From Pseudothauera nasutitermitis (lineage in GTDB: Bacteria; Pseudomonadota; Gammaproteobacteria; Burkholderiales; Rhodocyclaceae): DNA of 64,000 nt. The stretch spans positions 372,001-436,000 of the forward strand of contig NZ_SSOC01000006.1 of the NCBI RefSeq assembly GCF_004801295.1, given 5' to 3'. Of this stretch, positions 29,922 to 43,462 are shown piece by piece. How positions within the stretch are numbered: position 1 is the first letter of the stretch; the number at the start of each line of letters is the position of its first letter. A model generated the notes under the pieces. It saw only the letters and a list, made by a program, of their open reading frames with translations. It made no database searches and had not been told where the DNA came from. The translations under genes were made by a program, and so were the position numbers.

Positions 29922-30590
29922 TCAACGTAAAAGCCTAACAACCATAAATGCTTCCGCGGCCACTACTCCAACCGTGTTGCCTCGATGCCTTGCCAAGGAT
30001 TCCAAGTGCTTTAAGCTGCGAGAATGCGGCTCATCACGCATTTCAAGTTCATAAGCCTGGAGTGCTTGAAGCTTCACATCCAGGAAATCACTGATATCCA
30101 CGTAGTGATTCGGCTGAAAAGGAGATTCCGATGGTGTGGCCCATTCTGTGCTGGACATGACTTCAAAAGCATAAATCTCGCGGACGCTGCATCCCGGCAT
30201 CGGCCTGCAGGCAGTCAAGACGGCCGCGTGAGTGATTCTATGGTCAATGTTCAAATCGCCGTGGTGGTGCGTATAGATCACATCCGGTCGTACTTTTCGG
30301 ACGATTGGCTCAAGGCATTGAACAACTTCGATCAGTGGTAAATAGTCAAGCCGGTTGTCAGGTAGACCCAGGTAGTAGGATTCTCGGATGCCTAACAGTT
30401 GGCGGGCTTTTTCTGCGGCCCCGGTGCGTTGCTCAAGCTCGACATTACCCGACGTCTCACGTGCACTGACCCCATCCGCCAGGAATACAGCATATACGAT
30501 ATCGCCTTCCGAAACATGCCGGGCGATGGTACCGCCGCAGCCGAGAGCTTCATCATCGGGATGAGCGGAAACGATAAGAACGGTTTTCAT
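29922..30590 (-). CDS. PIG-L-family N-deacetylase
   Basis: A 222-aa zinc-dependent deacetylase of the LmbE/PIG-L family. The metal-binding motif AHPDDE is at 9-14, with the second set in YTHHHGDLNIDHRITH. Start ATG 30590 overlaps the pseI stop as ATGA, so it is coupled to the nonulosonate synthase. Family members deacetylate N-acetyl sugars; here it may trim an N-acetyl group from the nonulosonic acid or its precursor before another acyl group is added. The substrate is inferred from position only. Confidence 0.82.
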   Translation of the reverse strand: MKTVLIVSAHPDDEALGCGGTIARHVSEGDIVYAVFLADGVSARETSGNVELEQRTGAAEKARQLLGIRESYYLGLPDNRLDYLPLIEVVQCLEPIVRKVRPDVIYTHHHGDLNIDHRITHAAVLTACRPMPGCSVREIYAFEVMSSTEWATPSESPFQPNHYVDISDFLDVKLQALQAYELEMRDEPHSRSLKHLESLARHRGNTVGVVAAEAFMVVRLLR

Positions 30591-31639
30591 CCGATGTAAT
30601 TCCAAGAAAAAGCCGTCCCCTTTTTTAAATCCTGGTTGACGCGTCGACCAAGAACAATTTCATAATACTTTGGAGCCAGTCCGAATCCAGGTCTTATGAC
30701 ACGAATATTATTTTCTGTCAGCACTTCTCCAGCGACCATGTCCCTGCTGACGTAGATAGATCGTCGAAATTTAAGCGAGTTTCGTTCATTTTTACTTCCC
30801 CCATACTCTACCGCGCCAAGCGCTTGCCATGCGCGTTCCGTTTCCTCGACCAAGATTTTCAGCTCATGGGGTTCCAGCGAAAACGCAGAATCTACTCCAC
30901 CATCTGCGCGCGCCAAGGTGAAATGCTTTTCAATGACAGTCGCCCCCATTGCGACCGCTGCGCATGAAGCTCCAACTCCCATGGTATGGTCCGACAAACC
31001 AACTATGGTCTTGAATGCATCGCGTAAATGTGGAATGGTTAATAAGTTAGTGTCCGACGGTTTGGCTGGGTAGGTCGAGGTGCACTTGAGAAGAACAATC
31101 TGATCGTTGCCTTGATCGCGGACGGTGTTGACGGCCGTTTCGATTTCGCTGAGGGTCGCCATTCCTGTCGATAAAATGACCGGTTTCCCGGTCTTGGCTA
31201 CGCGGCGCAATAACTGCGTATCAACCAGTTCAAATGATGCAATCTTGTATAGAGGGGCATCGAGTTCTTCAAGAAAATCTACTGCTTTCAGTTCGAAAGG
31301 GGAGCTGAAGACAATAATTCCCTTTTTTTGGCAATATTCAAAAATGGGGGCGTGCCAATCCCATGGAGTGATGGCTATTTCGTACAGTTGATAAAGATTC
31401 TTGCCATACCAGAGGCTCTCTTTATCCAGTATCTGAAAGTCTGGCGAATCGATGTTCAGTGTTAATCCATCAGGGCTAGCTGTCTGCAATTTAATGGCAT
31501 GTGCGCCAGCGGAAATCGCTGCATCAATTATCCTATAAGCACGATCCAGGGATTGATTGTGGTTGCCAGACATCTCGGCAATAATGAAGGGTCGGCTCTT
31601 GAGTCCTATCGAAAAATCGCCAACTGATATGTTCTTCAT
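30587..31639 (-). CDS. pseI: Pseudaminic acid synthase (NeuB family)
   Basis: A 350-aa enzyme that condenses phosphoenolpyruvate with a 2,4-diacetamido-2,4,6-trideoxyhexose to give pseudaminic acid. The NeuB TIM barrel begins near FIIAEMSGNHNQSLDRA, the PseI form of a region that reads differently in sialic and legionaminic synthases. KCTSTYPA and VIEKHFTLAR follow. The C-terminal SAF/antifreeze-like domain (about 285-350) contains RRSIYVSRDMVAGE. The start overlaps the LpxD-like gene as ATGA. AT-rich compared with pseB and pseC. Confidence 0.92.
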   Translation of the reverse strand: MKNISVGDFSIGLKSRPFIIAEMSGNHNQSLDRAYRIIDAAISAGAHAIKLQTASPDGLTLNIDSPDFQILDKESLWYGKNLYQLYEIAITPWDWHAPIFEYCQKKGIIVFSSPFELKAVDFLEELDAPLYKIASFELVDTQLLRRVAKTGKPVILSTGMATLSEIETAVNTVRDQGNDQIVLLKCTSTYPAKPSDTNLLTIPHLRDAFKTIVGLSDHTMGVGASCAAVAMGATVIEKHFTLARADGGVDSAFSLEPHELKILVEETERAWQALGAVEYGGSKNERNSLKFRRSIYVSRDMVAGEVLTENNIRVIRPGFGLAPKYYEIVLGRRVNQDLKKGTAFSWNYIG

Positions 31640-32592
31640 AGGTATTTTTTCCTTTTGATCTCAATCGGCCTAGCGGGATTCCCGATAACCGTTGTGTTGC
31701 TTTCAACGGACTTTGTTACGACTGCGCCCATCCCGATAATGGCTTCATCTCCTAAATCAATCCAGTCGCGTATTGCACTGGCTGGCGCGAGCCAGCAGTT
31801 TTTCCCAATGCGGGTGCTGCCTCCAATAATTGAAAGTGCTACTATACGTGTCTCATTTCCGATCTTGACGTTATGGCCAATGTGGCAAAGATTGTCAATC
31901 TTCACATTGTCACCAAGGATAGTTTCGCCTATAGACGCCCTGTCAATGCATGTGCATGCTCCCACGCGGACGTTGTCCCCCATTCGCACTGTGCCGATAT
32001 GAGGAAAATCGATGATTTCCCCTGTCGCGGGGTCTTTCTCGAAGCCAAATCCTATCCCACCAATTACGGCGTTTGCGCCGATGCTGCATTTATTGCCGAT
32101 CATGGCGTTTTCGATAACTGCGCCCGGGAAAATAACTGTATCGTCACCTATTGACACATTTTTGCCGATAATCGCGCCTTTCATGATTTTTGCGCTATTA
32201 GAGATTCTGGCCTGAGGGTGCACTAAGCCGCCATGCCTATGATTGGTGTAGGCTGAGTCGGAATCGAGTTCGATCCAAAATCTCTTGAGGAAGTAGGCTA
32301 GTTCCAGCCTAGGTGTTTCGCATGCCAAATACATCAATCCATTGTCGTTGCGCGCGAGACGATCAGCCTCCTCTAATAGTGAGAACGGTATGAACAATAG
32401 GCCTGCTGACGAATTCTTTATCAGGGATACCCCCTGTTCGCCCTCAAATCGACAAAAGGAGACGTCTTCTGGCTTCGCCAGTGCTATGGGCTTTATGCTT
32501 GTGAATTTCTTACTTGGATGCGCCTTTCCGATGATTGTTATGCATCTTTCGCTGGAAAAGGACTCTATGTCGTGAATTGTAATGTTTAGCAT
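31636..32592 (-). CDS. LpxD-like hexapeptide-repeat acyltransferase
   Basis: A 318-aa protein with an LpxD-type N-terminal domain (SIKPIALAKPEDVSFC) followed by a left-handed beta-helix of hexapeptide repeats (about 115-300), including GGIGFGFEKDPATGEI and the catalytic-type IDNLCHIGHNVKIG histidine. It is not in an lpx gene context but is fused by ATGA overlap to pseI, so it probably N-acylates a sugar of this polysaccharide rather than lipid A. I start at ATG 32592; a TTG at 32664 is possible but lacks support. Confidence 0.78.
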   Translation of the reverse strand: MLNITIHDIESFSSERCITIIGKAHPSKKFTSIKPIALAKPEDVSFCRFEGEQGVSLIKNSSAGLLFIPFSLLEEADRLARNDNGLMYLACETPRLELAYFLKRFWIELDSDSAYTNHRHGGLVHPQARISNSAKIMKGAIIGKNVSIGDDTVIFPGAVIENAMIGNKCSIGANAVIGGIGFGFEKDPATGEIIDFPHIGTVRMGDNVRVGACTCIDRASIGETILGDNVKIDNLCHIGHNVKIGNETRIVALSIIGGSTRIGKNCWLAPASAIRDWIDLGDEAIIGMGAVVTKSVESNTTVIGNPARPIEIKRKKYL

Positions 32593-33037
32593 GATTGATA
32601 GAAATTCGATTGGGGTTTGCCGTGCCAGGGGTCGATTATTCCTATTCTTGCGCTGGAATTCCAAGGAAAACAGGGCTGCAATGGCTGGAGTTTATAAAGT
32701 AATGTTCTATCAAAATCCCTTCCTGATGGATTGCAAGTTTTTATGAGCTCTCAGTGATGCTTGGTTGATGCACAATACTATTCCCGTAGTCTTGCTAAAA
32801 AAGTGCGCTGGTTGCCGTATATCCGATTCGACTGCGTGACAGGGCTTCGGTGTCTGAAGAGCATGCGATCTATATATAAGGGCTTTCCTGGGCGGACGCA
32901 TGGAACACAGCGCAAGTTTCTTCATTCGCTCGAACTCTTTAATGATACTGTGCTCTAGCAGATTGATACAGAGTCTGCTGAGTGCACCAAAAGTCGGTAG
33001 CCATAGAACTGTCCCCAAATTTTCCGTCCTGACAGCG

Positions 33038-34097
33038 ATGCGAGACCAACCCAATCCCCTGCAGTCCTTAATGTTCCACTATTTCTCGCTGGAGTCGCGC
33101 ATACCGGCCGAACACTGAGCGCGATTTCGTCGGATCTGGATGCGCTGCACTCGGCAACGCAACGGGGCGGCCGTCGATTCCGTTCGACCGCCCGCTCAAT
33201 GGTCAGTTGCTGATTGCGCTGTACTCGATGCGCTCGGCTAAGCAGTTCTGCGGGTAGTTGGACTACAATTTTCCGTTCCGCAGGTTTCTCGACATGGATC
33301 TGGAGAGTGCGGACCTGGGTCAGTCCAATTTCATCTGGTTGTGCGAGTGTCTGATAGTGATCGACATCGCGCGACGTTTCTTTGACGAAGTGGTGAGCCT
33401 GGTCCGTCGAGACAGTTTGCTGTTCTCGGATCATTTCACAGCCGATGGCACCTTGATCGAGACGTGAGCCTCCTTCAAGAGCTTCAGGCGCAAGGACGGC
33501 GAACTGCCGAAAGACGGTGGCGGCTGCAGCGAAATGGTCAACTTCGAGGGCGGGAAGCGCTCGAACGCCACGCACCAAAGCTCCACCGATCCGGACTCGC
33601 GGCTCATGTGCAAGGGCAACGGACAGCCGGCGAAACCGAGCCACGGCGGGTATGTTCTCACGGGGAACCGCAACGGGCTGTGCGTCGACATTCTGGTGAC
33701 CGAATCGACGCAGGCTGAATATTATGCCGCACACTCGATGCTGACGCGCGCCCGTCGGCGGCGGATTCATCCAAAGACGCTGACCACCGACAAGGGTTAC
33801 CACGTCCAGGATTTCGTGGCACACCTGCGCGATCAGTGAATTCGTCCGCATATCGCCCGAATCGAGGGCCGGAAGACGCCGGGCCTCGATGGTTAGACGC
33901 GTACCGAAGGCGATCGGATCAGTCTGCGTAAACGAAAGCGGGTGGAGGAAATCTTTGGGCGGTTGAAGACAGTCGGTGGTATGCGCAAGACGCGTTTCAC
34001 TGGCTAGGCGAAGACACAGAGGGCAGCCTTTATCTCTGGAGCCGCATACAATATGTTGAGAATCGCGAAATTGAGCGATTGGAAGATGGCTGTGTGA
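33038..34097 (+). pseudogene. IS5-family transposase, degraded by frameshifts and stops
   Basis: The 1.65-kb gap 32593-34250 contains the remains of one transposase on the + strand. MRDQPNPLQSLMFHYFSLES starts at 33038, a TGA follows IPAEH, then come LDYNFPFRRFLDMDL, ADGTLIE and a TGA. The NFEGGKRSNATHQSSTDPDS block and HSMLTRARRRRIHPKTLTTDKGY follow, then an interrupted RPHIARIEGRK and a KRVEEIFGRLKTVGG tail ending at 34097. This order matches IS5-type (DUF772 + DDE) transposases. Multiple lesions make it inactive. No convincing terminal inverted repeats were found. The bases 32593-33037 and 34098-34250 show nothing I recognise. Confidence 0.85.
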
Positions 34098-34250: not shown

Positions 34251-34949
34251 TCAATCGCCACTTTTGGATTCGACTTTAAATAGTTGTACTGTATAAACCC
34301 GTCCTTCCATCTCGAAATAAGCAGGATATCGTTCATTGTCGACTATCCGAAACAAATTAAATTGTTCTCGCAAGGATTTGTCGACATCAAGCCGACTATC
34401 GGCAGGAATACGGCGGGAATAGTAAGAAGGCTCGCCTCCTTGTTGCTTAACTGGTTTGAGTGTTGGATAGGCACTCACGAACTTCAAACACAGCTCTACG
34501 GTCTTTTGCCCTTGAAGCGACCGCCACTCGTCGCACAGCTCGGTTCCATCAAGCTCGATGACGTCGCTTAGCCAGATATCGCCGGCATCGACCTCGTCAG
34601 TTGCCTCGATCAGACATATCGGGATGCTGCGTTTGCCTTCGAGAATCTGCCATGCCATGGGCGCAAAACCCCGCCCTTTAGGCAGGTCACTTTCATGTAC
34701 GACCAGGTTATGTTGGTTGCGCTGCAGCACTTCACTTCTGATGATACGCGTGCAGCCCAGAATGAAATTGACCCAGCCTGGATATACTTTGTCAGCACTA
34801 TCGACAAACTCAGCGTCGAACCCTTTTTTCTTTAGGGCCTGCACAAGGTGATGGGCGTAAGGAATGATCCAAGAATCATTGTCCACCAGAACAGTGATTG
34901 AGTTATTTTCCAAGCAGTATTCTCCCGACACGTTCAGTACCTGATCCAT
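34251..34949 (-). CDS. Formyltransferase, sugar N-formyltransferase-like
   Basis: A 232-aa protein of the methionyl-tRNA formyltransferase superfamily, lacking the long C-terminal tRNA-binding domain of Fmt. Catalytic-region motifs are visible: VVHESDLPKGRG (the H-x-S-x-LP type) and EVDAGDIW with the catalytic Asp. It would transfer a formyl group from 10-formyl-tetrahydrofolate to an amino sugar. The true start is uncertain: ATG 34949 overlaps pseG by 47 bases, while a TTG at 34913 with GGGAGAA upstream would fit the usual family N-terminus (ITVLVDNDSW). It lies downstream of pseG and upstream of the IS5 remnant. Confidence 0.8.
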   Translation of the reverse strand: MDQVLNVSGEYCLENNSITVLVDNDSWIIPYAHHLVQALKKKGFDAEFVDSADKVYPGWVNFILGCTRIIRSEVLQRNQHNLVVHESDLPKGRGFAPMAWQILEGKRSIPICLIEATDEVDAGDIWLSDVIELDGTELCDEWRSLQGQKTVELCLKFVSAYPTLKPVKQQGGEPSYYSRRIPADSRLDVDKSLREQFNLFRIVDNERYPAYFEMEGRVYTVQLFKVESKSGD

Positions 34950-36024
34950 CACAGATCGAAGCTGCTATCTGGGCGCTTTCCCTAAGCCGGGCTGGTGTGC
35001 GATAACTGTCTATTACCAACTTTAGCTGGGAGGCTAACGTTCCTGCCTCCAGGATGATCGTCTTGGCAGCGCCAGTTCGGTTCAGCTCAGACGAGATGAA
35101 TCGCTGGTTTTCAGCCAATACCAGCACGATGCTAGGCAAGCCCAGACAGCAACGCTCCCACGAGGTACTGCCAGCAGCTCCTATGGACAGGTCACTGTTC
35201 GTCATCAGGAGGCCCATGTCAGCGACGTTGACCAGCACCTGAGTTGGCCAAGGCATCCCTTTGGCGATTTCCTGCACCTGTTCAAGCCATAGCGCTTTCG
35301 ATCCCATCACTACGGTTATTTCGCAGTCGCTCGGCAAGGAGCAAACCTGCAGCGCCTGCAAAACCATGCTGGTGGCGTTGGGCCCGTCTACTCCACCCAT
35401 TGAAATAAGCAATCTGCGCAAACGAGGTGCGGCGCGTCGACTCAGGCTAGCCTCACGCAACGCGGCAAACTCGGGGCGTAGCAACGCATAGCGCGGCCCG
35501 GTAAGAACGGTGCAATGCTCCGGCACCAAGCTTTCATAGTCGACAGCCTGCCGCCCTAAATTTTGATCGAGCAGCAGATCGCACTGATGGTGCCGATCAG
35601 CTAGGTCATCAATGACCATCAAATGTGGGCAGCAATTGCGTAGAGCCTGTTCCCAGTGAATTTCCAACGCATAGTGGTCAACAATCAGCCAGTTGGGGCG
35701 CTGTGCCGCCAGAATGGGGGCGCAGGCCTCGGCGTCCTGCGCCTGGGGGGCGCCGAGCCAGTGACCGTGGGCGAGGTTGGGGTGCGTAGCTGTTTGCTCG
35801 GTTGCAAGCGACCCAGTCCTCGCAGCGGGTGGCGGCAGGGTGTGCACGATATGGCCTTTGCTGCGAATGAGTTCAATCAAGTTGCCGGGGTGCTCGCGGC
35901 AAATGAAGTGGCAATAGGCACCACGTTCGGTAAGCGCATCGGCTAGCGTCAAGCAGCGCATGACGTGACCGGTGCCGATCTGCAGTGAGGCGTCTGTACG
36001 GAAGGCAAATTGCATCGTAGTCAT
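34903..36024 (-). CDS. pseG: PseG UDP-sugar hydrolase of pseudaminic acid synthesis
   Basis: A 373-aa GT-B-fold hydrolase that removes UDP from UDP-2,4-diacetamido-2,4,6-trideoxy-L-altrose. N-terminus FRTDASLQIGTGHVMRCLTLA is the PseG/SpsG signature; DDLADR, LLISMGGVD and the C-terminal IGAAGSTSWERCCLGLP motif are all present. At 373 aa it is longer than the compact PseG proteins (about 275-340), mainly through an insertion near residues 65-105 rich in Ala/Thr/His. Start 36024 overlaps the upstream stop by one base (TGATG); ATG 36015 is an alternative. Confidence 0.9.
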   Translation of the reverse strand: MTTMQFAFRTDASLQIGTGHVMRCLTLADALTERGAYCHFICREHPGNLIELIRSKGHIVHTLPPPAARTGSLATEQTATHPNLAHGHWLGAPQAQDAEACAPILAAQRPNWLIVDHYALEIHWEQALRNCCPHLMVIDDLADRHHQCDLLLDQNLGRQAVDYESLVPEHCTVLTGPRYALLRPEFAALREASLSRRAAPRLRRLLISMGGVDGPNATSMVLQALQVCSLPSDCEITVVMGSKALWLEQVQEIAKGMPWPTQVLVNVADMGLLMTNSDLSIGAAGSTSWERCCLGLPSIVLVLAENQRFISSELNRTGAAKTIILEAGTLASQLKLVIDSYRTPARLRESAQIAASICDGSGTERVGRILLGK

Positions 36025-38051
36025 CAGTTCAGGCGTTTGAACCCTCCGTGACACACTGGGCCATTGAGCAGGCTGGCGATATCGCGGCCTTCTTCGCACT
36101 CCTTGATCAGACCGAATACCGGATCAAGTACCGAAAAATAATCCTGGACGATTTGGGGGGTGTGATCGATGCACACATAGACGCTGGTGCCGCCGAGATA
36201 ACCCTTTGCGAGCATTTCCTGCGTGATCAAGGTTTTGTAGGCCAGGGCGTTGTCACTACGGAAGGAGAAACCGGTGAGGGCGGGAAGGCCCCAGTGATCG
36301 ATGACCAGACCGTGTTTGTCGGCGAGCTGCTGCCAGCATTCGCGAATCTGTAGCCCGGTGGCTGTAATGGTTTCCCAGGAGTGGAGACGTTGCATGACTT
36401 CGAGCGTCTTGAGGGCCGCGCTGGGGCCTATGCGCTCGGTCCAGAATGTGCTGCTGATGAAGGTGCTTTGTGCGGCTTCCATGATTTCGCGTTTGCCGAT
36501 GGTGGCGGTAATCGCGTAGCCATTGCCGAGTGCCTTGCCGAACATGGCCATGTCTGGTTCAACTCCGTAAAGTTGATGCAGCCCGCCAAAGCTTTGTCGG
36601 AAACCGGAAGTGCATTCGTCGAAGATCAGCACGATGCCGCGGTCGGTGGCGAGCTTGCGTACTTTGTGGAGAAAGTTGTCTTCAGGCCCTTTGTTGCGCA
36701 CGACCTCCATCTTGATGACGCCGATGTCGTGCGTATTGACCAGGGATTCGAGCTCGGCAAAATTGTTGTAGCTGAAGGGGAAGACGGTACCTCGCAGGTT
36801 GCGTGGCACGCCGTTGGGCTCCAGCCCGGGCAGCAGATGCCCCGCGAGGCTTTCATCGTCGCCCAGGTTCGCCGACAGATACCAGTCGTGCCAACCGTGG
36901 TAGCCACACACGGCCACTTTGTCCTTCCCGCTGGCTGCACGGGCGATACGGATTGCGATGGCGTTGGCTTCTCCGCCGGAGCGGGCGAAGCGTGCCATAT
37001 CGGCCCATGGATGGAGTTCGATGAGCTTTTCCGCGAGATAGACTTCCTCGGGGCAGTTGAAAGTGGACATGTTGCCCGCGCTGACGGTTCGCTGCACGGC
37101 TTCGTCTACTTCCGGGTGGCCGTAGCCAAGCGTGTTGGTACCAATGCCCATGATGGACATGTCGATGTACGCGTTACCGTCCAGATCCCAGACCGTGCAG
37201 CCTTTGGCCTTGCTGAAGTAAGCGGGCCACTGTTCGGGGAGGAACATTTCCGCGCGTTTGGACAACAGCATGTTGCCGCCAGGAATGACGCGTTTGGCGC
37301 GTTTCCAGAGTTTCTGGCCGGTTCCCATCGAGGCTCCTTCGTTGCGAATCAGATGGTGGTTGGTGGCGAAAAGAGCCGGGCGTATCTGTTGCAGCGCCAG
37401 CACGTCCCGCCAAGAGAAGTGAATGTTGGGGGCGAAGTGTGCGAACACTGCCGTGACGACGTCGAAATCCGCCTGTTCATCAACTGTCCAGCGCAGTGTG
37501 TCGTGATTTTCTTCGGCCTGCAGGGATGCTTGGCTGAAGCGTCCCGATTCTCGTAGATAGGGTGTCACATGTTCGCGGTCGTGCGGGCGGGCTGTTTCCG
37601 CCGCAGCGCGTTCGAGTGCCGCCATGCTGAAGACCTCGGTATCCAGCCCGTCGGGGTAGGTGGGAGGGGATATGTTGCTGAAATAATTCACCCCGCTGGC
37701 TTTGAAGCCGCGAATGACCTCGTCAACCAACTCGGGGTCGATCAGTGGGCAGTCTCCGGTCACGCGCACCACGACGTCCGCACGGTGTGCGCGTGCGGCC
37801 TGCAGATAACGCGCAAGCACGTCTGTTTCGCTGCCCATTTCACATGCATAACCGAGTTTGCGCACATGCTCGGCAAGCACTTGGTTGCGGGGATCGATCG
37901 AGGTGGCGACGACGATCTGGTCGACTTCGCGTGCGCGAGAGAGCCGGGTGAGCAGCAGTTCGATCATCGGCACGCCGCCGATGGGCTTCATCACCTTGTT
38001 CGGCAGGCGTGTCGAACCCATGCGGGCTTGGACGATGGCAACGACTTTCAT
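36024..38051 (-). CDS. Fusion: SpsF-like cytidylyltransferase + GSA-aminomutase-like class III aminotransferase
   Basis: A 675-aa two-domain protein. Residues 1 to about 237 form an SpsF/PseF-type CMP-sugar synthetase (AIVQARMGSTRLPNKV near 6-20; RVTGDCPLIDPELVDE), ending in the family's usual RNEG tail. Residues 242-675 form a glutamate-1-semialdehyde-aminomutase-like PLP enzyme: GYHGWHDWY near 383-391, FDECTSGFR, and Schiff-base lysine K506 in FGKALGNG. The start overlaps the aldo/keto reductase stop (ATGA). The junction Met242 has AAGGAG five bases before it, so the second domain may also be made alone. It is the only cytidylyltransferase in the cluster, so it probably makes the CMP-nonulosonate. 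The aminotransferase substrate is unknown. Confidence 0.88.
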   Translation of the reverse strand: MKVVAIVQARMGSTRLPNKVMKPIGGVPMIELLLTRLSRAREVDQIVVATSIDPRNQVLAEHVRKLGYACEMGSETDVLARYLQAARAHRADVVVRVTGDCPLIDPELVDEVIRGFKASGVNYFSNISPPTYPDGLDTEVFSMAALERAAAETARPHDREHVTPYLRESGRFSQASLQAEENHDTLRWTVDEQADFDVVTAVFAHFAPNIHFSWRDVLALQQIRPALFATNHHLIRNEGASMGTGQKLWKRAKRVIPGGNMLLSKRAEMFLPEQWPAYFSKAKGCTVWDLDGNAYIDMSIMGIGTNTLGYGHPEVDEAVQRTVSAGNMSTFNCPEEVYLAEKLIELHPWADMARFARSGGEANAIAIRIARAASGKDKVAVCGYHGWHDWYLSANLGDDESLAGHLLPGLEPNGVPRNLRGTVFPFSYNNFAELESLVNTHDIGVIKMEVVRNKGPEDNFLHKVRKLATDRGIVLIFDECTSGFRQSFGGLHQLYGVEPDMAMFGKALGNGYAITATIGKREIMEAAQSTFISSTFWTERIGPSAALKTLEVMQRLHSWETITATGLQIRECWQQLADKHGLVIDHWGLPALTGFSFRSDNALAYKTLITQEMLAKGYLGGTSVYVCIDHTPQIVQDYFSVLDPVFGLIKECEEGRDIASLLNGPVCHGGFKRLN
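37326..37339 (-). promoter_or_regulatory. Internal ribosome-binding site and ATG at the domain junction
   Basis: On the - strand AAGGAG (37339-37334) lies five bases before an in-frame ATG (37328-37326) exactly between the two domains of the fusion. Translation from here would give a 434-aa stand-alone aminotransferase beginning MGTGQKLWKRAKRVIPGG, the natural start of unfused relatives. Confidence 0.6.
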
Positions 38052-38941
38052 GTTCTGTTCCAAAGAGCGGGATTGAGCAGCGCGGGGTCATCGGTGTCGA
38101 GGCTGGCCGGGCGTGCGGGCAGGACACCTTGCGCAGCAGAAAGAATGCCCTCCAGATGAGCTGTGCTGTCAACACCGATCACCACTCGTTTGACATCGGC
38201 TGTCCGCAGCGCATGGCGCACGCAGAGCTGAAGGGGGGACAGGTCGGTTTCGACAAGCCAATTTTCCCACCTTCTCCAAATTACATCCCATCTGGAAAAG
38301 TAGGCTGGTCGTGCGGAGGCGGACATCAGGAGTAAACCTTGCAAAAAAATAGATCGTGCGTGCAACTCACAGCCCGTTTCCGCCAATCGCGCAGCCCAGC
38401 CGGAGCGGACGATGCGGGTATCGAGGACGTTCAGCGGGGCCTGGACAATGTCGAATGTCATTTCCGATGGCAACTGCGCGAGTTCTTCTGGGTCGTAGAT
38501 CGAAATACCGATTTTCCGGACATGTCCCAGATCGCATTGAGTGCGCAATGCACGGTATAGGGCCGCCCCCTCGGCGGTACGCAATTGCGCTGGCCGATGG
38601 AGTAGCAACCCGTGCAGAACGGGTACCCGGAGCCTTGTAAGCGATCCCTTCACCTGTGCCTCGACCCACGCGGCCACGTGATCCGCGCCGGGCAGTGCGG
38701 GCATTTCCGGCAGCTTGGTGATGATTTGCCAGTCGGCGACGTTCAAGATCCCCAGTGTCGTCTCGCTATCGCCGTAGGCAATGGCCGTATCGAGTGTCCG
38801 GATACCGGCTTGGCGGGCAAGTGCAAGTATCCCGGCGCCTTGCTGGCGAGAGACTTGTCCCTGGGTGTTCGAAATGCCGTAAGGCAAGCCAAATTGCACG
38901 GTGCCCAAGATGATTTTATCGGGGTCGCTATTGCCATTCAT
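38048..38941 (-). CDS. Aldo/keto reductase in the nonulosonate cluster
   Basis: A 297-aa TIM-barrel oxidoreductase. It starts with ILGTVQFGLPYGISN; the catalytic tetrad is visible as Asp and Tyr in TLDTAIAYGDSE, Lys in IITKLP, and His in LLLHRPA. An aldo/keto reductase is not needed for canonical pseudaminic acid synthesis, so it may reduce a keto-sugar intermediate acted on by the adjacent class III aminotransferase. It overlaps the GNAT gene upstream by 14 bases and the fusion gene downstream by ATGA. Confidence 0.88.
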   Translation of the reverse strand: MNGNSDPDKIILGTVQFGLPYGISNTQGQVSRQQGAGILALARQAGIRTLDTAIAYGDSETTLGILNVADWQIITKLPEMPALPGADHVAAWVEAQVKGSLTRLRVPVLHGLLLHRPAQLRTAEGAALYRALRTQCDLGHVRKIGISIYDPEELAQLPSEMTFDIVQAPLNVLDTRIVRSGWAARLAETGCELHARSIFLQGLLLMSASARPAYFSRWDVIWRRWENWLVETDLSPLQLCVRHALRTADVKRVVIGVDSTAHLEGILSAAQGVLPARPASLDTDDPALLNPALWNRT

Positions 38942-39461
38942 CTTTCAACACCCCCAACCAAAAGCAGCCCTGGCGGTTACCGTCCAGCACGACGTTTTTT
39001 CTGAAAAAACCTTCGACGGTATAGCCGGATTTCATGAATGCCTTGAGGGATGCCAGATTCTCGTTGTAGCAGCCTGCTTCGACCCGCAAGAGACCGAGAT
39101 CCTCGAAAGCGTGGCGTGTGGCGAGGCGGATTGCCTCAGTAGCATAGCCCTTGCCCCATGCCTGCTTGCTGCCGATGAAAAGGCTGAGCTGAGCGGTGCT
39201 GTACCGCGAGTTGATAAAACCAATCTTGATGTTGCCGATGTGTTCGTCCATTCCAGCCAGAAAGATGCCGAAAAGGTGATGTACAGGGTTGTTATTCATG
39301 CTCTCGATGAATTGGCGGCAACTTTCGACGGAATGGTGCTGATGCCGAATTTCGAGAAAACGATTGACTTCGGGGTCATTGAGCCAGGCCGCATAGGAGG
39401 GACTGGCGTCGCTTGGGCAAAGCGGACGTAGGTAAAGTCGTTCAGAATTCAAAAAGGGCAT
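38928..39461 (-). CDS. GNAT N-acetyltransferase (PseH-like)
   Basis: A 177-aa acetyl-CoA-dependent acetyltransferase of the RimJ/L-like GNAT group. Acetyl-CoA pyrophosphate-binding motif SKQAWGKGYATEAI is near residue 100, and NENLASLKAFMKSGY is the C-terminal GNAT element. Between PseC- and PseG-type genes it most likely acts as PseH, acetylating the 4-amino group of the UDP-sugar. Starts at ATG 39461 or 39470 (MKQMPFLN); AGGCAGGATG lies just upstream and favours the inner one by spacing. Confidence 0.85.
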   Translation of the reverse strand: MPFLNSERLYLRPLCPSDASPSYAAWLNDPEVNRFLEIRHQHHSVESCRQFIESMNNNPVHHLFGIFLAGMDEHIGNIKIGFINSRYSTAQLSLFIGSKQAWGKGYATEAIRLATRHAFEDLGLLRVEAGCYNENLASLKAFMKSGYTVEGFFRKNVVLDGNRQGCFWLGVLKDEWQ

Positions 39462-39478
39462 TTGTTTCATCCTGCCTG

Positions 39479-39950
39479 ATGTGGTGTCACGCCGTATGTT
39501 TGATGGGTACGTCCGGTCTGATCGTCGAGTATTGACGGCACGATAGTGGCAATTGTATCCACTTGTTGTTCGCTCAGCCCGATCCACAGAGGCAGGCGCA
39601 CCAGTCGCTCGGCGACGTCCCGTGTCACCGGCAGATGCCATGGGGTCGACCATAGCGCAGCCCGGCTGGAGCGGTGTGCAAGGGGATGTAATGGAATACG
39701 GCATGGACACCGCGTTGCTGCAGGCCGTCGATGAACGCCGTGAGTTCGTGCGGGGCCAGTGCCTGATGGTAGCGCTGCCAGGTTGTCCGGCAAGCCGTGA
39801 TGATGTCGTCGGCCGCTTCCATCTGGGCCCACAGGAAGGTCGCGATCAGTTCGCCGGGTAGGTCGTTGGAGCCCAAGTCGCACCACGTGTACTTGTCCGC
39901 CGGGCCGCGGAAAAAGGCGCTGTCGCAGGCGAGGCATTGTTTCACGGTCG
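39479..39950 (-). pseudogene. wecE: Decayed dTDP-4-amino-4,6-dideoxygalactose transaminase (WecE/RffA), C-terminal fragments
   Basis: The 624-bp gap between the GNAT and acyltransferase genes holds WecE-like pieces in two - strand frames. The first reads AFFRGPADKYTWCDLGSNDLPGE..., then FLWAQMEAADDI, WQRYHQALAP and VFHYIPLHTAPAGLRYGRPHG. A frameshift near 39640 then gives LPVTRDVAERLVRLPLWIGL down to the tail at 39479. About 30 residues between QALAP and VFHYIPLH are missing, and so is the whole N-terminal two thirds with the PLP lysine. It is therefore inactive. Bases 39950-40085 encode a short hydrophobic stretch in one frame that I cannot assign. Confidence 0.75.
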
Positions 39951-40085
39951 GGACTCCACGGCGGGATGGCGAAAGAAGAAGCACCTGAACGCGATGAACA
40001 GAAAGCTTGCCACCATGAACACCGCCACGGCTTGCGCCCCTCTTGATAGGGATAGCCCAGCAAGTCCCCGGACAAGGCCCGGAAT

Positions 40086-41261: not shown

Positions 41262-42428
41262 CTACTGCGCCGGACGCAGCACGTGTGCGAGGGCCGTCAC
41301 GACCTGTTCGAGCTGGGCGTCCGTCATGCGCGGGTACAGCGGCAGGCTGATCGCCTCGGCGTAATAGCGCTCCGCTTCGGGGAAGTCGCCTGCCTGGAAG
41401 CCCATGGCCTGGTAATACGGTTGGGTATGGACGGGAATGTAGTGCAGATTCACGCCGATGCCCTGCTCGCGCAGCGCTTCGAAGATCTGGCGGTGGTTTC
41501 TGCCGATGCAGTCCAGTTGCAGACGGATGATGTAGAGGTGCAGGCCGGAGTAACCGTCCGGGTGCTGCCACGGCGTGGTCACCGGCAGGCCGGCCAGCAG
41601 TTCGTCGTAGCGGCGGGCCAGTTGATGGCGGCGGGCGACGTAGTCGTCGAGCCGTGCCATCTGGCTCGTGCCGAGCGCGGCCTGCAGTTCGGTCATACGG
41701 TAGTTGAAACCGAGTGCGATCTGCTGGTAGTACCACGGGCCGCCGGCGTCGTGGGTCATACGCGCCGGGTCGCGGGTGATGCCGTGGCTGCGCAGCAGGG
41801 CCATCCTGTCGGCGAGCACGTCGTCGTTGGTCAGCGCCATGCCGCCCTCGGCGGTGGTGACGATCTTGACCGGGTGAAAGCTGAACACGGTGATGTCGCT
41901 GTAGCGGCCGCTGCCGATGTATTCGCCTTGGTATTTGCCACCGATGGCGTGCGAGGCGTCCTCGACGATCTTGAAGCCGTAGCGCTGCGCCAGCGCGTGG
42001 ATGGTCGCCATGTCGCAGGGCTGGCCGCACAGGTGCACCGGCACGACGATTTTCGGCAGACGGCCTTCGCGTTCAGCCTGCTGGAGCCTGCGTTCCAGTG
42101 CTTGCGGACACAGGTTGTAGGTGCGCGGATTGATGTCGACGAAATCGATCTTGGCACCGCAGTACAGTGCGCAGTTGGCCGAGGCGACGAAGGTGATCGG
42201 GCTGGTCCACAGCCAGTCGCCCGGCCCCAGGCCGAGCGCCAGACAGGCGAGGTGCAGCGCCGAGGTGGCGCTATTGACCGCGACGGCGTGCTTTGCACCG
42301 ACATGCCGGGCGACCTGCTGCTCAAAGCGCGGCACCTGCGGGCCCTGGGTCAGAAAGTCGGAACGCAGCACCGCGACGACGGCGTCGATGTCTGCCTCGG
42401 TGATGTCCTGGCGGCCGTAGGGGATCAT
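41262..42428 (-). CDS. pseC: UDP-4-amino-4,6-dideoxy-N-acetyl-beta-L-altrosamine transaminase PseC
   Basis: A 388-aa DegT/DnrJ/EryC1 aminotransferase (PLP, glutamate donor) for step two of pseudaminic acid synthesis. It opens IPYGRQDITEADIDAVV with LRSDFLTQGP, as PseC/SpsC do. Asp157 is in VEDASHAIGG and the Schiff-base lysine is K188 in FSFHPVKIVTTAEGG. HYIPVHTQPYY and the SLPLYPRMTD C-terminus are typical. It follows pseB with a 3-bp gap. Confidence 0.94.
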   Translation of the reverse strand: MIPYGRQDITEADIDAVVAVLRSDFLTQGPQVPRFEQQVARHVGAKHAVAVNSATSALHLACLALGLGPGDWLWTSPITFVASANCALYCGAKIDFVDINPRTYNLCPQALERRLQQAEREGRLPKIVVPVHLCGQPCDMATIHALAQRYGFKIVEDASHAIGGKYQGEYIGSGRYSDITVFSFHPVKIVTTAEGGMALTNDDVLADRMALLRSHGITRDPARMTHDAGGPWYYQQIALGFNYRMTELQAALGTSQMARLDDYVARRHQLARRYDELLAGLPVTTPWQHPDGYSGLHLYIIRLQLDCIGRNHRQIFEALREQGIGVNLHYIPVHTQPYYQAMGFQAGDFPEAERYYAEAISLPLYPRMTDAQLEQVVTALAHVLRPAQ

Positions 42429-42431
42429 GGT

Positions 42432-43430
42432 TCAGATCTTCCCGATTTTCTCTTGATTGGCGGCGACCCAGGCCTGCAAGGCCTCTCGGGACATCCAGTC
42501 GGGGTTGTTGTCGCTGGTGTAGCTGAAGCCTTCGGTGACGCGCTGGCCGTTCTTGATGCGTTTTTCGCAGCGATGCCAGTCGTTGATCGCCGGAAGAATC
42601 TTGAAGTGCTCCTCGTATTCGTAGGTATAGAGGGAATCTTCCGCACTGATCATTTCTTCATGCAGCTTTTCGCCCGGGCGGATGCCGACGATTTCCTGTT
42701 GAGCCTCGGGCGCCACGGCTGCGGCCAGGTCGGTGATGTTCATCGATGGAATCTTCTTGACATAGATCTCGCCGCCTTCCATGTCGTGGAAGGCATGCCA
42801 GACCAGTTCCACACCCTGTTCGAGCGAGATCATGAAGCGCGTCATGCGCGGATCGGTGATCGGCAGCACGCCCTTGTCCTTGATCGACAGGAAAAACGGG
42901 ATCACCGAACCGCGCGAGCCCATGACGTTGCCGTAGCGCACCACGGCGAAGCGGGTGTCGTGGGCGCCGGAATAGGAATTGCCGGCGACGAACAGTTTGT
43001 CCGAGGCCAGTTTGGTGGCGCCGTACAGATTGACCGGGCTGCTGGCCTTGTCGGTGGATAGCGCGACGACGCGTTTGACACCCTTGTCGATGCAGGCGTC
43101 GATGAGGTTCATCGCACCGTTGATGTTGGTCTTGACGCATTCGAAGGGGTTGTATTCGGCGGTCGGTACGATCTTGGTGGCCGCCGCGTGGATCACGTGG
43201 TCCACGCCGTCGAGCGCGCGGTACAGGCGGTCCTTGTCGCGCACGTCGCCGATGAAGAAACGCACGCGGGGGTCGCCCCGAAACTGCTTGGCCATTTCCC
43301 ATTGCTTCATTTCGTCGCGCGAGAAGATGATGATTTTCTTGGGGTTGTACCTGGCGAGCGTCATCGGAACGAAGGTGTGGCCGAAGGAGCCGGTGCCGCC
43401 GGTGACGAGAATGGTCTGGTTGGTGAGCAT
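42432..43430 (-). CDS. pseB: UDP-N-acetylglucosamine 4,6-dehydratase (inverting) PseB
   Basis: A 332-aa SDR, the first enzyme of pseudaminic acid synthesis. The NADP motif TGGTGSFGHTFV is at 10-21; IIFSRDEMKQWEM, HAAATKIVP and STDKASSPVNLYGATKLASDK with Tyr-x3-Lys identify the FlaA1/PseB group. It lacks the membrane segments of the long FlmA/PglF dehydratases. ATG 43430 is chosen since homology begins there. The gap to the flippase gene is 32 bp. Confidence 0.95.
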   Translation of the reverse strand: MLTNQTILVTGGTGSFGHTFVPMTLARYNPKKIIIFSRDEMKQWEMAKQFRGDPRVRFFIGDVRDKDRLYRALDGVDHVIHAAATKIVPTAEYNPFECVKTNINGAMNLIDACIDKGVKRVVALSTDKASSPVNLYGATKLASDKLFVAGNSYSGAHDTRFAVVRYGNVMGSRGSVIPFFLSIKDKGVLPITDPRMTRFMISLEQGVELVWHAFHDMEGGEIYVKKIPSMNITDLAAAVAPEAQQEIVGIRPGEKLHEEMISAEDSLYTYEYEEHFKILPAINDWHRCEKRIKNGQRVTEGFSYTSDNNPDWMSREALQAWVAANQEKIGKI

Positions 43431-43462
43431 GGGAACAATCCGTGAAGCAGAAGAAAGCGGGG

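Follow-up and report, generated by a model that had tools for sequence, protein, structure and literature searches.

The fused gene and its junction

The gene analysed here lies on the minus strand of a 64,000-nucleotide stretch of DNA from Pseudothauera nasutitermitis (contig NZ_SSOC01000006.1; the whole stretch is referred to below as the window) and encodes an SpsF/PseF-type cytidylyltransferase fused to a class III aminotransferase (positions 36024..38051). Its reading frame is open from the ATG at 38051 through the TGA at 36026-36024 and specifies 675 residues, with full-length homologues of up to 80% identity. The SpsF-type domain comprises residues 1-239 (37335..38051, minus strand), is recognised by Pfam, ends at its C-terminus in a conserved RNEG motif and has a relative of known structure in PDB entry 6oew (E 1.4e-36). 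The aminotransferase domain, residues 242-675 (36027..37328, minus strand), resembles glutamate-1-semialdehyde aminomutase (GSAM). The initial annotation of this DNA had placed the two domains in one frame, and Pfam confirms this with both scores over the cut-offs: CTP_transf_3 covers residues 4-174 (E 2.7e-30; 106.3 bits, cut-off 22.6) and Aminotran_3 residues 277-604 (E 1.1e-39; 136.7 bits, cut-off 30.5). By sequence, the N-terminal half is a member of the cytidine monophosphate (CMP)-sugar synthetase family; of 75 NCBIfam matches the 25 listed do not include a PseF model. The C-terminal half belongs to the class III pyridoxal phosphate (PLP)-dependent aminotransferases by its Pfam score, its matches to solved structures and folds, and an invariant lysine, K506, which is unchanged across 43 aligned rows and which we take, from what is known of the family, to be the PLP lysine. 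In an AlphaFold model of the 675-residue protein (mean pLDDT 86.5, pTM 0.62) the two domains are confidently predicted, with a weak region between them at about residues 231-280.

The junction reads GAAGGAGCCTCGATGGGAACC on the minus strand. Its codons AAC GAA GGA GCC TCG ATG GGA ACC contain a candidate internal Shine-Dalgarno (SD) sequence, AAGGAG (37334..37339, minus strand; codons GAA GGA G), five bases before a candidate internal start codon, ATG242 (37326..37328, minus strand). A methionine is aligned with codon 242 in most unfused relatives whose sequences were printed, in agreement with the earlier proposal that the inner methionine is the start of unfused homologues. Among the in-frame ATG, GTG and TTG codons of the gene, anti-SD pairing is strongest at codon 242 (-8.0, compared with -3.3 at the gene's own start). 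The arrangement AAGGAG-N4-9-ATG occurs seven times in the window, a count that takes in ordinary gene starts too, and is expected 2.2 times on average from shuffles, of which none in 100 reaches seven. For this protein sequence, encoded with the codon preferences of the gene itself, the chance of AAGGAG at the junction is about 10%; the single case is therefore weak, and the comparative data carry the weight. The SD-marked junction suggests a gene within a gene.

Distribution of the fusion

A collection of 84,980 species was scanned with the fused query, and the best 80 of at least 583 matches were kept. Adding the locus of the window itself and five more from genomes of the same class gives 86 loci, 85 of them distinct. 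The count of fused against split forms that the initial annotation had proposed gives 65 loci fused in one frame, eight with separate adjacent genes, and twelve with an aminotransferase that has no matching SpsF inside or beside it; these numbers lean towards fused forms, as most of the loci are the top-ranking matches to a query that was itself fused. Record titles include Massilia, Marinobacter, Chlorobium, Moorena, Prochlorococcus, SAR116, Pelagibacteraceae and Acidimicrobiaceae, and thus span many phyla, albeit that many of the matched records are metagenome-assembled and some taxon labels may reflect binning errors. Fused members diverge down to 44-48% identity. Because the fusion is both divergent and widespread across many phyla, we reject the earlier suggestion that it is recent.

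Contiguous homologues with 64-77% identity were found in five other families among 369 genomes of the class, and in a sample of six genomes of the genus (E up to 1e-47) the fusion was present only in the window's own genome. Across the genome samples, close homologues comprise 12 fused and five unfused forms (at least 55% identity, own and seed genomes excluded, repeats counted once). The class genomes were searched at E 1e-47 and the other samples at 1e-90, a threshold that misses unfused relatives near 35-40% identity; one further genome sample at E 1e-90 yielded the seed and no other homologue. The fused protein is already in databases, named for one half: WP_089422657.1, from a Pseudosulfitobacter plasmid, is the same fusion (60% identity, one coding sequence, in a pse cluster with an aldo/keto reductase) and is annotated as 'aminotransferase class III-fold PLP-dependent enzyme'. 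A second plasmid match, from the archaeon Halorussus, has been annotated as a pair of genes.

Comparative evidence on the inner ribosome site

Codon use at the site was compared for a core clade of 50 fused genes. Glycine 239, whose codon completes the candidate SD, is encoded by GGA in 29 of the 50. At 46 other conserved glycine columns the mean fraction is 0.183 (sd 0.075), so that position 239 ranks first of 47. Expectation from each gene's own codon use (45 genes) gives 9.5 GGA codons where 25 are observed. A count based on the motif finds GGA in 28 of 49 core genes (9.9 expected), in five of 19 split SpsFs (6.1 expected) and in seven of 19 other fused genes (6.6 expected); this count leaves out motif variants such as those of L097 and L103, and its split row for locus L004 caught a neighbouring INAG instead of the RNAG motif. 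L072, identical to L026, was dropped before the GGA counts. By parsimony, 12 changes account for the 29 GGA codons at Gly239, and other glycine columns are close to saturated (one needs 14 changes for 14), although another needs 5 for 8.

The SD energy before codon 242 is also stronger than in synonymous shuffles (z -4.65; none of 1000 shuffles), unlike the inner methionines 261, 298 and 448, where SD-like sites are weaker than in the shuffles. As the sequences are related, the raw P values of the GGA count and the shuffle z-scores are in themselves weak evidence. GGA accompanies a start codon at position 242 in 27 of 41 genes, and is found in two of the nine genes lacking one (Fisher p 0.025, uncorrected for ancestry). 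As part of what would count against its proposal, the initial annotation had named an old fusion, widespread and without the internal SD: the fusion is indeed widespread, but GGAG and ATG are both present in 25 of the 50 core genes. The homologues of Massilia sp. ZL223 and Marinobacter persicus each have GGA and ATG at the junction. By these comparisons the start codon and SD are conserved beyond coding need in the core clade only, and not in divergent members. The inner site thus looks to be under selection in the core clade, which upholds, for that clade, the earlier claim that an initiation signal was kept at the junction, and we lean slightly towards a free aminotransferase being made in vivo.

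Origin of the junction, fission and other fusions

The spacing from Gly239 to residue 242 is identical in all 50 core genes, and this single junction geometry points to one event. The initial annotation had ascribed the fusion to loss of a stop codon. Split SpsFs, where their tail was printed, continue for 8-17 residues past RNEG (for example RNEGYEKSINSENL followed by the stop), and the motif itself is missing in the split SpsFs of L107 and L029. Most aminotransferases of split loci begin with MG(K/T)GQ. The fused form has no such SpsF tail, so that a change of the stop alone is insufficient and a deletion is needed; simple stop loss is rejected for the core fusion. A GAAGG-like stretch occurs on both sides, in the Asn-Glu-Gly codons of SpsF and in the ribosome site of the aminotransferase, e.g. 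GGAGTCATCATG of the split relative L131, whose aminotransferase starts with GGAG-N5-ATG in the geometry of the fused junction. The junction plausibly stems from a deletion between these stretches, which would have brought GAAGG of the Asn-Glu-Gly codons together with AAGGAG of the aminotransferase ribosome site and removed the SpsF tail along with its stop.

On a tree of 132 rows (FastTree, many weak forks, seven duplicate rows dropped beforehand) the label 'fused' needs 12 changes. Free aminotransferases are nested inside the core clade (L131, L093, L094 and three from Devosia), which argues for later fission. In L131 an aminotransferase of the fused clade is partnered with a different SpsF, and in L093 with a different cytidylyltransferase-like gene that has no NCBIfam match. 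The free aminotransferase of Rhodoferax (L094:6962-8383) still bears in its frame an SpsF-like end from residue 215, clear at RNEGA, likely a relic of fission. Fission and partner swap thus probably followed the fusion. Elsewhere, L091 (Sphingobacterium) and L146 are fused with both the SpsF tail and the inner methionine retained, and look like read-through fusions. As a separate observation, the more distant aminotransferases (41-51%) of L159 and L148 carry an N-terminal portion that, by eye, resembles an amidohydrolase.

The surrounding gene cluster

The fused gene lies in a pseudaminic acid cluster, in which PseB, PseC, PseG and PseI all score over their cut-offs and lie on one strand. Unless stated otherwise, the genes below are on the minus strand. 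An aldo/keto reductase (AKR; 38048..38941, Pfam) is directly upstream, its stop overlapping the ATG of the fusion (ATGA), and the likely ATG of PseG (34903..36024; TIGR03590, 323.8 bits, cut-off 153.55) overlaps the stop of the fusion (TGATG). PseI, pseudaminic acid synthase (30587..31639; TIGR03586, 492.1 bits, cut-off 340.25), PseC (41262..42428; TIGR03588, 573.5 bits, cut-off 423.5) and PseB (42432..43433; TIGR03589, 543.2 bits, cut-off 407.75) are more distant. This cluster context suggests that the SpsF half activates a pseudaminic-type nonulosonate with CMP.

Pfam further identifies a formyltransferase-like gene (34251..34952), found in ten of 59 fused loci, a PIG-L-family deacetylase (29922..30590) and a GNAT acetyltransferase (38928..39500 as scanned; its true start is not settled). 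An LpxD-like acyltransferase (31636-32664) exceeds the cut-off of NF002060 (214.3, cut-off 207) and stays below that of the lpxD model TIGR01853; tblastn gave no match covering more than 40% of it in 79 loci. A piece of a second WecE-like sugar aminotransferase (39628-39984), matching TIGR02379 positions 214-276 and no Pfam family, is an apparent remnant, and between the formyltransferase-like and LpxD-like genes lies a broken transposase fragment on the plus strand (33534-33839; weak DDE_Tnp_1, E 0.0017, below cut-off).

Of these neighbours the AKR was found by tblastn in 55 of 59 fused loci from the species scan, mostly directly upstream, in six of eight loci with adjacent split genes and in two of 12 others. 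At the WP_089422657.1 locus it is two genes further upstream, and in L093 it stays with the aminotransferase despite the changed cytidylyltransferase-like gene. A PseI-like gene accompanies 42 of the 59 fused loci, and PseB-like and PseC-like genes 37 each.

Function of the aminotransferase half

The pseudaminic pathway of the textbooks is not known to include a reaction for a class III aminotransferase, and on this point we share the view of the initial annotation. A HemL identity is rejected, as the domain scores 180.9 bits with the equivalog TIGR00713 (hemL), which has a cut-off of 527.3. The best-scoring NCBIfam model, NF004856 (PRK06209), is likewise below cut-off (240.8, cut-off 486). 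The genome carries another GSAM-like gene (C5:333707-334741), 35% identical. FumI and GSAM are the closest solved structures, and FumI, an aminotransferase, is on top both by sequence and by fold.

At least one NanA-, NanE- or NanK-type gene lies near the free copies L111, L114, L118-L121 and L150, which form one clade, and near L115 of Devosia; an Opp-type (oligopeptide) ABC transporter is present in all six Nan-type loci with enough flank. Neither Nan-type genes nor an Opp-type transporter were seen in the neighbourhood of L112 and L116, also of Devosia, and tblastn found no AKR in the Nan-type loci. In L114, NanA passes NF003164 (294.3, cut-off 281) and fails a stricter nanA model (251, cut-off 382), NanE passes its cut-off (282.7, cut-off 189) and NanK does not (219.1, cut-off 283). 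L114:4472-8299 and similar Nan-type loci are possible breakdown clusters for modified nonulosonates. With close relatives standing free beside Nan-type genes, the simplest common substrate would be a nonulosonate or a product of its cleavage; by analogy with the KdnB route to Kdo8N we infer that a nonulosonate is what the aminotransferase acts on. The fusion suggests an uncharacterised step in the making of sialic-acid-like surface sugars.

Proposed role and alternative explanations

We favour the explanation, with a probability of roughly 0.55, that the gene encodes an enzyme with two functions in making a modified nonulosonate of the pseudaminic type, that it arose by deletion, and that its inner start is still used. 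The upstream AKR would make a keto group on the nonulosonate, the aminotransferase half would turn this into an amine, and the SpsF half would activate the aminated product with CMP, in parallel to the steps by which KdnB and its partners form the amino sugar Kdo8N. Ribosomes would still start at ATG242, so that additional aminotransferase, free and of 434 residues, would be made besides the full-length enzyme. C8 may be the site of amination, as a guess.

Several observations weigh against this explanation. The C8 site is drawn from analogy. The SD is partly dictated by coding, with AAGGAG spelling the conserved Asn-Glu-Gly of SpsF, and the opening energy of the RNA at the inner site, 11.4, is only mildly favourable (gene mean 13.7), the main start being more accessible (7.2). 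A start codon at 242 is missing from nine of the 50 core genes, and two of these nine keep GGA. In 20 fused genes of less than 60% identity the SD signal is absent (z +0.49). Of the 19 'other fused' genes, 11 are divergent members of this kind with the same junction geometry, in which GGA (five of 11) is about at the level of codon use. Fusions at other junctions (L028, L030, L031, L133, L134, L136, L151-L154) have no ATG there. By z-score codon 242 ranks fifth of 664 columns, in a distribution overdispersed by shared ancestry (about -6 to +5). By mean SD energy it ranks 14th of 675, and since the 13 stronger columns have no known start, SD energy alone is no proof. Independent pairs for start codon and GGA number three on starred branches, of which one or two are informative, and have no power.

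Three other explanations of the junction have to be weighed. The cell may make the fused enzyme only, with the SD and ATG a decaying relic of the unfused gene from which no separate protein arises. The absence of the GGAG and ATG pair from half of the core genes and of a start codon from nine, the divergent fused genes without the signal, and the fusions at other junctions that manage without an inner ATG would all fit this. Yet with other synonymous glycine sites near saturation, a relic should have decayed to the level of codon usage, and GGA stands at 0.58 against 0.18; nor do the weak SD-like sites at the other inner methionines speak for a relic. We regard it as unlikely. An SD-like run that slows ribosomes between the domains and so aids folding, with no initiation, would suit the position of the site at the domain boundary, where the AlphaFold model is weak between confident flanks, but would leave unexplained why GGA is tied to the start codon and occurs only once in seven fused genes with another linker (L133, L134, L136, L146, L152-L154); we consider this improbable. 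That AAGGAG is mere coding of the conserved Asn-Glu-Gly, devoid of meaning, draws on the fact that GAA GGA G encodes a motif found in split SpsFs too. GGA is at expectation in those split genes and in the other fused genes, however, and enriched in the core clade only, which makes this reading more improbable still. Coding constraint alone, tried as an explanation of the core count, proved insufficient (28 of 49 against 9.9 expected).

As to chemistry, the aminotransferase half could be a GSAM-like aminomutase that moves an amino group within the sugar, or could act on a sugar precursor. GSAM is indeed among the best matches, but the top solved structure is an aminotransferase, the AKR partner suggests an oxidise-then-transaminate pair, and Nan-type clusters would handle nonulosonates rather than uridine diphosphate sugars; we therefore hold this alternative to be doubtful. 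Beyond the bifunctional enzyme that we favour, one may picture a widespread and horizontally moving module of AKR and fusion for an undescribed class of amino-nonulosonates, e.g. 8-amino-pseudaminic acids, in which a selected internal ribosome site gives two proteins from one gene, excess free aminotransferase sets the flux, and the aminotransferase, freed again, serves in Nan-type operons for the breakdown of these sugars in other bacteria. This wider picture is speculative, and we put it forward tentatively.

Many bacteria are coated with nonulosonates, the catalogue of whose chemistry is still growing. From a common module with an aminotransferase to which no role has been assigned, one would predict sugars that may never have been sought, and the nested free copies that occur in Nan-type clusters hint at the class of substrate. 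In addition, the junction offers a natural test of the ability of an internal start to survive gene fusion: as the same families are fused at several junctions, with an excess of SD codons in one clade only, the effect of free aminotransferase is directly comparable.

Comparison with known systems

In the open-licence literature no paper was found on this fusion or its inner start, and neither triamino- nor 8-amino-nonulosonates were found there, the leads going to Kdo8N only. The locus resembles the pseudaminic pathway (PseB-C-(H)-G-I-F) in having PseB, PseC, PseG and PseI, with the SpsF domain in the place of PseF; it differs by the additional AKR, class III aminotransferase, formyltransferase-like gene and PIG-L deacetylase, and by the cytidylyltransferase being fused. 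The route to Kdo8N employs the aminotransferase KdnA and a CMP step, but its substrate is an octulosonate and its genes are not known to be fused. In the passages on its first step, KdnB of Shewanella is the Kdo 8-oxidase, an oxidoreductase acting on C8 of a keto-sugar acid to give, in the end, an 8-amino sugar, and is an iron-type alcohol dehydrogenase rather than an AKR (PMC5125639). The oxidoreductase partner of a Kdo8N-type route is thus represented here by an AKR, which belongs to a different class of enzymes from KdnB.

Two products from one frame are known from bacterial N-terminal proteoform pairs, with clpA cited as a case; the pairs in those passages were shown by ribosome profiling (PMC11005335), whereas the present argument is comparative. 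The fused nonulosonate (NulO) synthase-phosphatase of Leptospira likewise joins an adapter enzyme to a nonulosonate enzyme, although other enzymes are involved and the relevant passages make no mention of an inner start (PMC3438082). In the O-antigen genes of Legionella pneumophila Sg6, as described in the part of the source concerned, PseG, an annotated glutamate-1-semialdehyde aminomutase and an acylneuraminate cytidylyltransferase adjoin one another as Lp6_763-Lp6_765, neighbours of the same kinds as at the present locus but in separate genes, with a role that is not discussed in that part (PMC3694923).

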